Assembly (NCBI RefSeq): GCF_950295315.1
Contig: NC_080171.1
Coordinates: forward strand, 33,844,361 to 33,908,360
Direction: 5' to 3'
Length of the DNA stretch: 64,000 nt
Origin: Erinaceus europaeus
Lineage: Eukaryota > Chordata > Mammalia > Eulipotyphla > Erinaceidae
A program made the translations under genes and the position numbers. Below the pieces are notes generated by a model that saw only the letters and a list, made by a program, of their open reading frames with translations, was not told the origin of the DNA and made no database searches. Each line of letters starts with the position of its first letter. Position 1 is the stretch's first letter. Shown one piece after another: positions 18,713-51,207 of this stretch.

Positions 18713-18903
18713 ATTCTCTTCTCTCTCTCTCTCTCTCCCTCTCTCTCTCTTTTTAAAGATTTTATTTATTGATTAACGAGAAAGATAGGAGGAGAGAGAG
18801 AAGAAACAAGACATCACTTTGGCACATGTGTTGCCAGGGATTGAACTACAGACCTCCTACTTGAGAGTCCAATGCTGTACACACAGCGCCATCTCCCAGA
18901 CCT
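18713..18903 (-). mobile_element. SINE-C, antisense, perfect 15-bp target-site duplication
   Basis: TTTTAAAGATTTTATTTATT tail side, CAAGACATCACTTTGG, GGGATTGAACTACAGACC, head GCGCCATCTCCCAGACC. Exact flanks CCCTTTGGATCTTTT (18698-18712 and 18904-18918). It lies within the L1. Confidence 0.92.
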
Positions 18904-23751: not shown

Positions 23752-23885
23752 TTTTTTTTTAAAGATATATTTACTTATAATAAGGAGACAGGAGAGAATG
23801 AGAACCAGAACATCATTCAGGCACATGTGATACCTAGGATTGAACCTGAGTCCCCAGACTTGTAAGTTCAGTTCACTGGACTATG
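23752..23885 (-). mobile_element. SINE-C, antisense, left half of the retrotransposon target
   Basis: AAAGATATATTTACTTATAA, CAGAACATCATTCAGGC, GGATTGAACCTGAGTCC, then ACTGGACTATG. The head of the same SINE (GGCCACCTCCCAGG) appears only after the retrotransposon, at 26210-26225. Confidence 0.8.
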
Positions 23886-26198
23886 CTATCATCCACATTG
23901 GTCTCCAGCTCCCACTGATTTTGTGCTCGGAGAAACTAAGATGGAACTTTCGGAAAGCAAACTGGCGTCTGTTCAGTGATCTTACCAACAAATCTATTCC
24001 TGCAATTCCAATTAACTCTATCCCCTCTGAAGATTCCTACAGGCGCTTCCACCAAGCCATCTTCAAAGCAGCTTCCCAAGCTATTCCTCGTGGGAGACGT
24101 GCTAACTATACGCCTGGTCTTGATGCTGAATGCGAGCAACTACTAAAGCAGTATGATGAGTCGGGCGACCCAGATGTGGCTGACCATCTCATTGCCTCCC
24201 TGGATGCAGCAGCACGCCAAGCCCGCTGGCAACAACTCACGGAAAGTCTGAACTTCACCCACTCAAGTAGGAAGGCCTGGAAGCTTCTTCATAGTCTGGG
24301 TGCTGGTAGCCAACCCTCTCCCGTCTCCCATCCTCCCGTATCTCCAAACTCAGTGGCCAGTCACCTAACTCAAGTTGGACGTGCTAAGATCGACCCAGTC
24401 TGGAAAAGAGAAATTTCCCATGAGTGGTCATCCCACTTCTGTTTATCTTGTCCATCTCCAAAACTCTCTCCCTTTACACTGTCTGAACTGGAAGACGCTT
24501 TGAAGAGGGTTAAACCAGGAACGGCTGCTGGCTATGATAACATCACCCCAGAACTCATTCTTAACTTGGGCCCCGCGGCAAAGAAGTGGCTCACTACATT
24601 CCTGTCCCACATCTTGGAATCCGAATCTATGCCCAAAATTTGGCGTCACACGAAGATAATAGCAGTTTTGAAACCAAAGAAAGACCCAACACTGGCTGCC
24701 AGCTATAGACCAATTTCTCTCCTCTCCGTGTGTCTCTCCTCTCTTGAGAGGCTGCTTCTGTCATGTATTTCTCCTCTTACAGAGAAATTCCTATCACCCG
24801 CCCAAGCTGGTTTCCGCCCAGGAAGATCTACCTGCGAACAAGCCCTGGCCCTCTCAACTTACATTGAAAATGGATTCCAGAAGAATTTAAAGACAGGTGC
24901 TGTCTTTGTTGATCTCACAGCAGCCTATGACATGGTCTGGCACCGTGGTCTCCTAGTCAAGATCTCAAGATGCCTGCCTCCATGGGTGGCCAACACTATA
25001 TCGTTTCTTCTCCAAAACAGAAGATTCCGGGTGCATCTGGGTGACAAGTCTAGCAGATGGATTCTTGTCTCAAGTGGTCTCCCCCAGGGCTCTGTTCTGG
25101 CTCCTACGCTATTTAATATTTACATCAATGACCTTCCAGAAACTTCTTCAAGGAAGTTCATCTACGCCGATGACATCTGCTGTGCAACTCAGGCATCCAA
25201 GTTCGACATCCTCGAGGAAACACTCACGAAAAATATGTCTCTGATATCTGATTACTGTAAAAAATGGCGACTAATCCCTAGCACTGCAAAAACGGTATCA
25301 TCTGTTTTCCATCTACACCATGCCTCGGCCTCACGTGAGCTTAATGTGCAGCTTGACAATACAAGAATCCAGCATGAAGCCCAGCCAGTCTATCTTGGCG
25401 TTACTCTCGATCGCACCCTGTCATTTCACGAACATCTCATAAAAACTGCAGCAAAGGTGGGCGCAAGGAATAACATCATTGCAAGACTGGCCAGCTCCTC
25501 ATGGGGCGCTAGCGCTTCCACACTACGATCATCATCTCTGGCATTATGCTATTCCACTGCAGAATACTGTGCCCCAGTATGGTTCCGTAGCCCCCATGTC
25601 CACTTGGTTGATTCCAAATTATATTCCTCCATGAGGATAATTTCTGGAACCATCCGTTCCACCCCGGTTCCATGGCTGCCAGTTCTTAGCAACATCGCCC
25701 CACCAGATATTCGTCGGGATGCGGCATCATCTAAGTTCATTTCCCACGTCTACGCTCGACCGGACCTGCCAATATACACGGATATCTTCGCCCACCTTGT
25801 CCAACGCTTGACGTCTCGTCATCCAATCTGGTCCCCTACACCTACACTGAACTTCTCTGTTCCAGTCTCTTGGAAACAGAGTTGGCAGTCAGCTGAGGTA
25901 AAGAACAAACACCTCATCACAGACCCCTGAAAGCATCAACCCGGCTTTGACCTAGCACATTATGATTGGGCCCTCCTCAATCGTTATCCAACAGGCCATG
26001 GCCGGTGCGCCACTATGTTCCATCGCTGGGGAGCCAGAGACGACCCGAACTGCCCCTGTGGCTACAGACAGACTATGACCCACATAGTCAACGACTGCCA
26101 CCTCTCCAGATTCAAAGGAGGTCTCGAAACTTTACATCAGGCTCAACCTGACACTGTTGACTGGCTACGGAAGAAGGGCAAACGCTAGAAGAAGAAGA
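23886..26198 (+). mobile_element. Jockey-superfamily non-LTR retrotransposon, 5'-truncated, 11-bp target-site duplication
   Basis: A 2.3 kb insertion flanked by ACTGGACTATG at 23875-23885 and 26199-26209, splitting an antisense SINE-C. It carries the end of an upstream domain, a whole reverse transcriptase, a C-terminal Cys/His cluster, and a very short 3' part ending in (GAA)n straight after the stop codon, with no poly-A. It is visibly GC-richer than its flanks. The start, just before the RWNFRKANW motif that in this superfamily follows the endonuclease, shows that the endonuclease and anything upstream are missing. A short microsatellite-like 3' end and a 'LPQGSVLAPTLFNIYINDLP' block place it with jockey-type elements rather than L1, L2 or BovB/RTE. 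A second copy of the 3' end is at 49884-50201. Confidence 0.88.
23888..26188 (+). pseudogene. Reverse-transcriptase ORF of the retrotransposon, one nonsense codon
   Basis: The frame is open to TGA at 25928-25930 and continues in the same frame, uninterrupted, for 85 more codons to TAG at 26186-26188. Counting residues from the in-frame ATG at 23840 (which lies in SINE sequence, so it is not the native start): RWNFRKANW near 36-45, GTAAGYDNITPEL near 228-240, YRPISLLS near 290, FVDLTAAYD with catalytic Asp358, LPQGSVLAPTLFNIYINDLP near 414-433, and YADD 442-445 with the catalytic Asp pair. The thumb/C-terminal region (VYLGVTLDRTLSFHEH, APVW, IAPPDIRRDAA) follows. After the TGA comes a CPCG...H...C cluster typical of these ORF2 C-termini. 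All polymerase active-site residues are intact. In the second copy the codon at the TGA position is TGC, so the stop is a private C-to-A change. Endonuclease absent, so not autonomous. Confidence 0.85.
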
Positions 26199-26225
26199 AC
26201 TGGACTATGGGCCACCTCCCAGGTT

Positions 26226-42234: not shown

Positions 42235-42663
42235 TGTCGTATGCTTTACATTGGCTTGTTCTAGCCCTCCCCCTCCAAGAGAATTGGATGAGTCCTGTTA
42301 ATTTCTCGGGCCTGCTTGGCCCCGCCCCAAGGGACCCTGGGGGAGGGTTCCGGAGTCCGAGAGTTCCTGAGTTCCCCAGTGACAGAGTTCCTGAGTTCCG
42401 GAGTTCGAGAGTGCGAGGGTGCGAGAGTTTCTGAGTTCAAGAGTAAGGGAGAGGGTTCCTGAGTTCGAGAGAAAAAGAAAGAGTGCTTGCGCCGCCGCAA
42501 AGAGACAGCAGAGTTCTGTTTGGTGATTAGTTTGTCTTAGTTTGTGAATCGTTGTTCCTGAATAAAGAAATACAGCTTCCCTGCCCAGCCGTTGTCTCCA
42601 GCGTCTCTGTTCACCACCGTGAAGCTAGCCGGCCCGGCAAGAGCCCCGGAAATTTTAACAACA
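42235..42663 (+). mobile_element. Class II ERV 5' LTR
   Basis: Begins TGTCGTATGC and ends AATTTTAACAACA, two bases before a lysine-tRNA-type primer-binding site. Contains a repeated GAGTTCCTGAGTTC-type motif (42360-42480), a GCGCCGCCGC element and AATAAAGAAATACAGC near the R region. About 429 bp and GC-rich. Different from the LTR family at 54850. Confidence 0.8.
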
Positions 42664-42665
42664 AA

Positions 42666-42683
42666 TGGCGCCCACGTGGACCT
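42666..42683 (+). promoter_or_regulatory. Retroviral primer-binding site, lysine-tRNA type
   Basis: TGGCGCCCACGTGGACC directly follows the LTR with a two-base gap. A TGGCGCCC start is the signature of tRNA-Lys(1,2)-primed betaretrovirus-like elements. The later bases deviate slightly. Confidence 0.75.
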
Positions 42684-42733
42684 GACCTGCGCATCTCTCA
42701 GATAAGTAAAGACAATTTGGCTACCTATGCACG

Positions 42734-43351
42734 ATGGCCTTCTCTTCTGCTTGTGAAGAGATCTCCAAAGGCCTCTGCTCTTTCTTCACGAGACTGTTTT
42801 GCTGTTTCTGGAACATTTATCTCTGGACCACTCTGTGGTTTCCACTCGCTCGGGCGGACTCAGAACAGCCAGCGGGAAGAGCCAGCGGGCGGGAGGCAAG
42901 GCGCGGAGCTGCTGTTTCCACCTGGTCAAACAGCCAGCCAGCCGGCTGTGCCCAGACAACCCCGCGCACCGCGCCAGCAACCCCGCAGCCCCGCAGCCCG
43001 CAGGAGGCCTACGCCACCATGCAAGAGCCCGATGCCAGCACGCTAGAGCCCGATGCCAACATGCTGGAGCCCGATGCCAACATGCTGGAGCCTGAGGCCA
43101 ACATGCTGGAGCCCGATGCCAACATGCTGGAGCCTGAGGCCAGCCCACAGGAGCCGGCTCTCCACCGCGTGGCGCAGGGCACTGGACGCTTGATCCCTCC
43201 ACGCTGCTCGGCCACTGCGAACAGGGCAGCAGACATGGCAGGGCCATGGGGCAGGGCCGCGGCGTTCTATCATGGCCGCCACCCCTGGGCACCTAGGCTC
43301 ATGCCTTCTACAAAGATGGGCTCCAGCATGTTGGGAAACATTTTTAAATGA
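42734..43351 (+). CDS. 205-codon ORF in an ERV leader/gag position, six heptapeptide repeats, function unknown
   Basis: ATG lies 50 nt after the primer-binding site. Residues about 17-40 form a hydrophobic, Cys/Trp/Phe-rich segment ending in ARA before a polar region, which looks like a signal peptide or membrane anchor. Residues 45-97 are rich in Pro, Ala, Arg and Gln. Residues 98-139 are six tandem 7-residue units of the EPDANML type (21-bp DNA repeats, 43025-43150). The C-terminal third has low complexity and the frame ends near 43351, where retroviral-looking sequence stops. I do not recognise it as Gag, Pro, Pol or Env. It may be the start of an accessory or fused frame, or merely a GC-rich leader open by chance, but the repeat stays in frame and its units vary mainly at D/E. 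No 3' LTR follows. Confidence 0.4.
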   Translation: MAFSSACEEISKGLCSFFTRLFCCFWNIYLWTTLWFPLARADSEQPAGRASGREARRGAAVSTWSNSQPAGCAQTTPRTAPATPQPRSPQEAYATMQEPDASTLEPDANMLEPDANMLEPEANMLEPDANMLEPEASPQEPALHRVAQGTGRLIPPRCSATANRAADMAGPWGRAAAFYHGRHPWAPRLMPSTKMGSSMLGNIFK

Positions 43352-49766: not shown

Positions 49767-50345
49767 AAGCCTGGGAGGTCGCACACCTGGTTAAGCTCAC
49801 ATAGTACTAAGCGCAAGGACCTGTGCAACCATCTGGGTTCATGTGCCTGCTCCCCACCTGCAGGAGTGATGCTTCACAAGCAGTTCTTCTTCTAGCGTTT
49901 GCCCTTCTTCCGTAGCCAGTCAACAGCGTCAGGTTGAGCCTGATGTAAAGTTTCGAGACCTCCTTTGAATCTGGAGAGGTGGCAGTCGTTGACTATGTGG
50001 GTCATAGTCTGTAGCCACAGGGGCAGTTCGGGTCGTCTCTGGCTCCCCAGCGATGGAACATAGCGGCGCACTGGCCATGGCCTGTTCGATAGCGATTGAG
50101 GAGGGCCCAATCATAACGTGCTAGGTCAAAGCCGGGTTGATGCTTGCAGGGGTCTGTGATGAGGTGTTTGTTCTTTACCTCAGCTGACTGCCAACTCTGT
50201 TGTGAAGCAGGTCTGTAGGTGTCCGTCTTTCTCTTTCCCTCTCTACTCCCCCTCCTCTCTCAACTTCTCTCTGTTCTATCCAATAAAATGGAAACAAATA
50301 GCCATCAGGAGCAGTGGATTGCCCCAGCAATAACCCTGGTGGCAG
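49767..50345 (+). mobile_element. tRNA-SINE (A/B hybrid) split by a retrotransposon fragment
   Basis: 49767-49883 has GGGAGGTCGCACACCTGG and CCCACCTGCAGGAGTGATGC to CACAAGCAG. 50202-50345 resumes GTGAAGCAGGTCTGTAGG to GGAGCAGTGGATTGCCCC and CAATAACCCTGGTGG. The two halves meet almost seamlessly when the insert is removed. Confidence 0.8.
49884..50201 (-). mobile_element. Second copy of the jockey-type retrotransposon, 3' end only
   Basis: 318 bp, reverse strand, matching 25869-26198 from AACAGAGTTGGCAG through the TAG stop and the GAA tail (one GAA unit shorter). By hand I count seven substitutions and one 4-bp deletion (CAGA near the CPCG motif, which shifts the frame). At the position of the first copy's TGA this copy has TGC. 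No clear target-site duplication: the host SINE reads through with at most a base or two gained. Confidence 0.9.
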
Positions 50346-50694: not shown

Positions 50695-50910
50695 GGGACT
50701 GGGTGATGGCACACCTGGTTGAGCACACATGTTACAACGTACAAGGACCCATGTTTGAGCCCTCAGCTCCCCATCTGCAGGGGGAAAGCTTTACGAGTCA
50801 TGAAGCAGGACTGCAGGTGTCTCTCTGTTTCTCTCCTTCTTTATCACCCCCTTCCTTCTGTTTCTAGCTGTCTCTATCCAACAAATAAAGTTAATAATAA
50901 AAAATTTATT
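50695..50910 (+). mobile_element. SINE-B
   Basis: GGACTGGGTGATGGCACACC, GTTTGAGCCCTCAGC, GGGGGAAAGCTTTACG, AACAAATAAAG tail. Confidence 0.88.
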
Positions 50911-51207
50911 GAAGATATCATTTTTTACTATAGTTCATGGTCAAAGATAGTTTAAACCCATTTATTTTGTATAGTTTGCTTTGAGAAACTGTTTAGAGGT
51001 TCTAGCAGGGAAGCACAGCTACTCATATACCCTCAACCAAAGCCTGGTCCATCTTTATTCAGAGAAACATGCAGCTATGAGAGGGACACACATGAAGTGG
51101 TGAGGGAGGAAAGGGATACCCACCTATCCAGCCAGATCAGTCAAATCAACCCTGGCGATCAATGAGGTGACAGATGTCACAGCCAGATGGCCCTCACATT
51201 CTGATTT
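50911..51207. other. No recognised feature
   Basis: Unique sequence. Confidence 0.5.

Follow-up and report, generated by a model that had tools for sequence, protein, structure and literature searches.

A 5′-truncated LINE copy, most likely of the Vingi clade, in a 64-kb stretch of the Erinaceus europaeus genome

The Vingi elements of hedgehogs are among the few lineage-restricted, recently active non-L1 LINEs in mammals. The Vingi clade was reportedly named for hedgehog elements by Kojima, Kapitonov and Jurka in 2011, who are said to have found it in two hedgehog genomes and in no other mammal then sequenced (element names Vingi-1_EE and Vingi-1_AAl). The elements are reported to be without RNase H, and horizontal transfer was reportedly judged likely but unproven. 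The absence of an RNase H domain is a criterion of Vingi that Jockey elements would also satisfy, and the Ingi clade carries the domain. Jockey LINEs have an EEP endonuclease and the general motif layout of the reverse transcriptase (RT), with two open reading frames, the separate ORF1 lying upstream; their RT forms another branch. Hedgehog Vingi bears on the frequency with which LINEs cross between animals.

The title of the 2011 description calls Vingi "Ingi-related" (doi 10.1093/molbev/msq220). In PMC3183009, hedgehog Vingi stands among the "older likely horizontal transfers," several species having derived families in common, and 311 hedgehog copies of Vingi-1N3_EE are given as under 1% divergent. 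A 2025 annotation of Atelerix reports 4,476 "I-Jockey" copies covering 2.2 Mb, and its main text does not use the word Vingi (PMC12026660). Automatic annotation may label both Vingi and Jockey as "I-Jockey," and the Atelerix copies would presumably be Vingi.

We describe here a LINE insert in 64,000 nucleotides of Erinaceus europaeus contig NC_080171.1 (the window, to which all positions refer). The insert is truncated at its 5′ end, bracketed by a target-site duplication and closed by a simple 3′ tail; it encodes RT motifs, and the same window holds a second copy that lies inside a SINE and is 2.2% diverged (Table 1). We read it, at a probability of roughly 90%, as a dead-on-arrival, 5′-truncated copy of a hedgehog Vingi non-LTR retrotransposon, most likely of the described family Vingi-1. 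Hedgehog-type Vingi is already known, and this copy, though real, is no new find: it adds structural detail (ends, tail, nesting) to the published case and leaves that case unchanged.

Table 1. LINE-derived features and junctions in the 64-kb window
Feature	Positions	Strand	Basis
5′-truncated Vingi-type LINE insert, 2,313 bp	23886..26198	+	Flanking duplication and homology edges of relatives
Target-site duplication, left copy, 11 bp	23875..23885	+	Same 11-mer at either end of the insert
Open frame: last stub of endonuclease region, linker, RT, to premature stop at 25928-25930	23888..25930	+	ORF list, Pfam, relatives
RT domain RVT_1, catalytic motifs included	24674..25405	+	Pfam PF00078, E = 8.4e-30; motif positions
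C-terminal region with Cys/His motif, element's own stop codon at end	25931..26188	+	85-aa frame; zf-RVT E = 0.11; relatives
Short (GAA)n-type 3′ tail adjoining stop codon	26189..26198	+	Sequence; similar tail in second copy
Target-site duplication, right copy	26199..26209	+	Identical 11-mer
TTC/ACTG junctions, main insert	23870-23885, 26186-26209	+	Sequence
Second 3′ fragment of the same LINE family, 318 bp, nested in abundant SINE	49884..50201	-	96.6% identity over 322 columns; empty-site matches
TTC/ACTG junctions, second copy, ambiguous by a few bases	about 50205-50200, 49885-49870	-	Sequence

The identical 11-mer that brackets the insert is the longest word common to the two end regions of ~120 bp. 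Homology edges were located with 103 relatives of 950 to 1,050 aa, all of which align to the window. Their homology starts at 23885 in 81 cases, at 23888 in 16, at 23891 in 3 and elsewhere in 3, and it ends at 26167 in 101 of the 103. Because 100 of these relatives start within about 5 bp of 23886, the homology edge falls on the duplication, and the limits that the initial annotation had given (23886 and 26198) are exact, both meeting the 11-bp repeat. The alignments begin at median residue 234 of the full-length relatives, so about 230 of some 1,000 residues are missing from the insert; Pfam identifies this N-terminal part as the EEP endonuclease (PF14529, PF03372) in the full-length proteins. 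Five N-terminal queries found no endonuclease remnant in the 64-kb window, their eight matches being at chance level (best E = 0.74); one of the eight is an edge of 10 residues within the element itself. A target-site duplication, 5′ truncation and a simple 3′ tail, which serve as LINE criteria, are thus all present.

Frame 2 of the plus strand is open from 23831 to the premature stop (699 aa from stop to stop, 680 aa from 23888 on) and reopens after 25930 for 85 aa, ending at the stop at 26186-26188. By the ORF list, the coding total from 23888 to 26185 comes to 766 codons, interrupted by a single stop, in agreement with the earlier estimate. The 699-aa frame is far beyond chance, since the longest stop-to-stop frame in the rest of the window has 213 aa and that in 20 order-2 simulated windows reaches 226 aa at most (mean of the longest frames, 178 aa). 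The RVT_1 match covers residues 282 to 525 of this frame, with the catalytic motifs FVDLTAAYD at residue 359, GLPQGSVLAPTLFN at residue 416 and YADD at residue 445, and bears out the claim of an RT domain with the catalytic Asp motifs. The Cys/His C-terminus, also proposed earlier, was found as a C-C-H-C block in the 85-aa piece after the stop; its zf-RVT match is weak and under the Pfam cut-off, and P0001 (see below) and other relatives share the region. No RNase H match was obtained with Pfam in either coding piece of the insert. The description "near-intact" holds for the RT part but not for the element, given the missing endonuclease. Without that domain, and with a stop before the C-terminus, the insert should be inactive.

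Three protein searches returned 1,048, 324 and 1,679 proteins; the best 120 of each were taken, and 172 distinct proteins were kept. Among the matches listed, the full-length relatives are ~1,000 aa long and combine an EEP endonuclease with RVT_1. RNase H (PF00075) is present in none of the best 120 of the 1,048; one of these 120, P0091, has a different kind of RNase H-like domain (PF17917). The closest protein among the matches listed is P0001, with 95.6% identity across 477 residues and no stop at the position of the insert's internal stop. The first 20 residues of P0001 match the window copy in inverted orientation (25826-25767; 80%, E = 2e-4), an arrangement that could reflect a rearranged or twin-primed insert. 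After P0001, no relative among the matches listed exceeds 61% identity over stretches of 350 residues or more. In one scan of genome contigs, from which records near the window's genome were possibly excluded, 32 stretches matched the search pattern and none encoded a relative; likewise, one pattern scan and one protein scan of viral contigs yielded no related copy, the single pattern-matching stretch encoding no relative.

The main tree was built from the window copy and 45 of the 172 proteins, with rows hand-picked for spread and names. The window copy pairs with P0001 (100/100), the pair groups with five further proteins (98/96), and a 31-row clade that includes the window copy (100/99) is split from 14 rows that include the named arthropods (90/74). 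An earlier tree, built from the window copy and 63 of 154 proteins, showed this main split too. The named organisms in the three lists, among the matches listed, are a pseudoscorpion, an aphid, a sand fly, a moth and one fish. Five proteins of named arthropods (one from Cordylochernes, two from Uroleucon, one from Phlebotomus and one from Leguminivora) were measured against the window copy and are 41.2 to 44.5% identical to it. The fish protein, P0162 from Muraenolepis, is 45.5% identical over 352 residues and stands alone on a very long branch in the main tree. Its gene model holds a Vingi-like RT piece twice and is probably chimeric; given this appearance and the long branch, no inference was taken from it. 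In a comparison of the RT core with solved structures, R2 proteins matched best (E = 5.7e-12 to 5.2e-9) and L1 ORF2p less well (2e-7 to 5e-7); R2 and L1 LINEs have a similar RT core, yet they are only distant relatives of the insert's RT.

We infer the family name from these results together with the host. The endonuclease of the relatives, the finding of no RNase H in the insert and the hedgehog host fit Vingi, and the clade, as assigned from features, literature and context, is most likely correct. The absence of RNase H does not by itself separate Vingi from Jockey, and an EEP endonuclease is not specific to Vingi. The Ingi clade differs in carrying RNase H, in contrast to the window copy, in which none was found; "Ingi-related," by the title, refers to Vingi. 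With Vingi-1 of hedgehogs the insert shares the type of host, an EEP endonuclease and RT in full-length relatives, the lack of a detected RNase H, recent activity and a suspected horizontal transfer; by description no difference was found, the window copy being truncated and broken. The arthropod Jockey clade likewise consists of EEP-endonuclease LINEs with the same general RT layout, but differs in its two reading frames and its RT branch. "Jockey-type," as the element had been called, is therefore imprecise: it is a LINE whose features and context fit Vingi, and not Jockey in the strict sense. That such a LINE is unusual for a mammal was well founded.

The second copy differs from the main insert by seven substitutions and a 4-base gap over 318 aligned positions (2.2%, Jukes-Cantor). 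Six of the seven substitutions change the reading, one of them being the stop, and five are in CpG context. With the divergence split evenly and a rate of 2.2e-9 per site and year, as used in PMC12026660, the two window copies would have separated some 5 million years ago, a date that rests on seven changes and is only an order of magnitude. The 3′ end of this copy also carries a (GAA)n-type tail, and no clear target duplication was found around it. When its empty site was rejoined, 52 window matches were obtained, counting its own flanks; 36 others extend 10 bp or more beyond the junction in both directions, which places the copy inside a SINE. For the main insert, the rejoined empty site gave 10 window matches, two of them junction-crossing, namely its own flank and 18750-18899 (68%, 152 columns).

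These sites bear on whether the element could be another organism's DNA brought in by contamination or misassembly, which we regard as extremely unlikely. No support for it was found, and both the 11-bp duplication and the position of the second copy within a SINE speak against it, as does the match of the main insert's empty site to that one other independent place in the window. The strong argument is the second fragment, 2.2% diverged and inside a SINE with so many other junction-crossing matches in 64 kb.

We infer the following course for the Vingi insertion. An intact source copy elsewhere would have encoded one protein of ~1,000 residues with an endonuclease, an RT and a Cys/His C-terminus. 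By target-primed reverse transcription, the source RNA, starting at its (GAA)n 3′ end, would have been copied into host DNA at a nick; copying would have stopped short of the endonuclease region and left the short target duplication, and the stop mutation would have been acquired after insertion. Such transcription from an intact source, halted early, best explains the truncation, the tail and the duplication together.

Vingi may have entered hedgehogs by transfer or by descent. The initial annotation had proposed a recent horizontal arrival, possibly from a tick or mite. Of this, recent copying inside the host is supported and a recent arrival is not; horizontal transfer coincides with the suspicion published for hedgehog Vingi but is neither proved nor disproved here. 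The proposed ectoparasite donor found no backing: none of the named proteins among the 172 retained is close to the window copy. In its full form, a true Jockey-clade element that came recently from an arthropod ectoparasite, the proposal is very improbable. All named organisms but the fish in the three lists, among the matches listed, are arthropods, and for other elements transfers from nematodes to a shrew and from insects to a hedgehog are described in PMC6542046 and PMC3517439. The five arthropod proteins, however, lie outside the 31-row clade that holds the window copy, and with a recent donor an identity far above 41 to 45% would be expected, which disfavours one. The contigs of relatives, mostly ~3 to 4 kb, also leave little room for the separate ORF1 of Jockey, although contig ends are arbitrary and the window copy is truncated.

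Vertical inheritance of Vingi from early amniotes, with survival among sequenced mammals in the hedgehog line, is compatible with the Vingi assignment and is possible, if rather unlikely. Vingi traces in human and Vingi in reptiles make such survival possible: X12_LINE is listed as a human Vingi repeat in PMC5753468, PMC9004415 records one pre-amniote Vingi fossil in human, and Vingi in Anolis appears in PMC3747384 and PMC7561263. No close donor is visible among the matches listed, the non-self relatives being at most 61% identical. Against descent stands PMC3183009, where hedgehog Vingi is taken to be a likely horizontal transfer.

Both window copies join their target at TTC/ACTG, adjoining the (GAA)n tail, in different stretches of host repeat; the window contains 17 occurrences of TTCACTG or its complement. 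A target-site preference of hedgehog Vingi for TTC/ACTG is a doubtful suggestion, drawn from two copies and noticed after the fact. If general, it would make this compact LINE semi-specific in its insertion, with host SINEs as landing places.

Elsewhere in the window, ten other frames of at least 140 aa, considered as possible host genes, gave one Pfam match, far under the cut-off. A GC-rich stretch at 42343-43351 contains several tandem repeats, with units of 8 to 32 bp and of 21 bp; its overlapping frames of 168 to 213 aa on both strands have no Pfam match. A full-length match to 7SK RNA, as expected of a vertebrate host, lies at 50884-51201 on the minus strand (176.7 bits) and represents a gene or a retrocopy.
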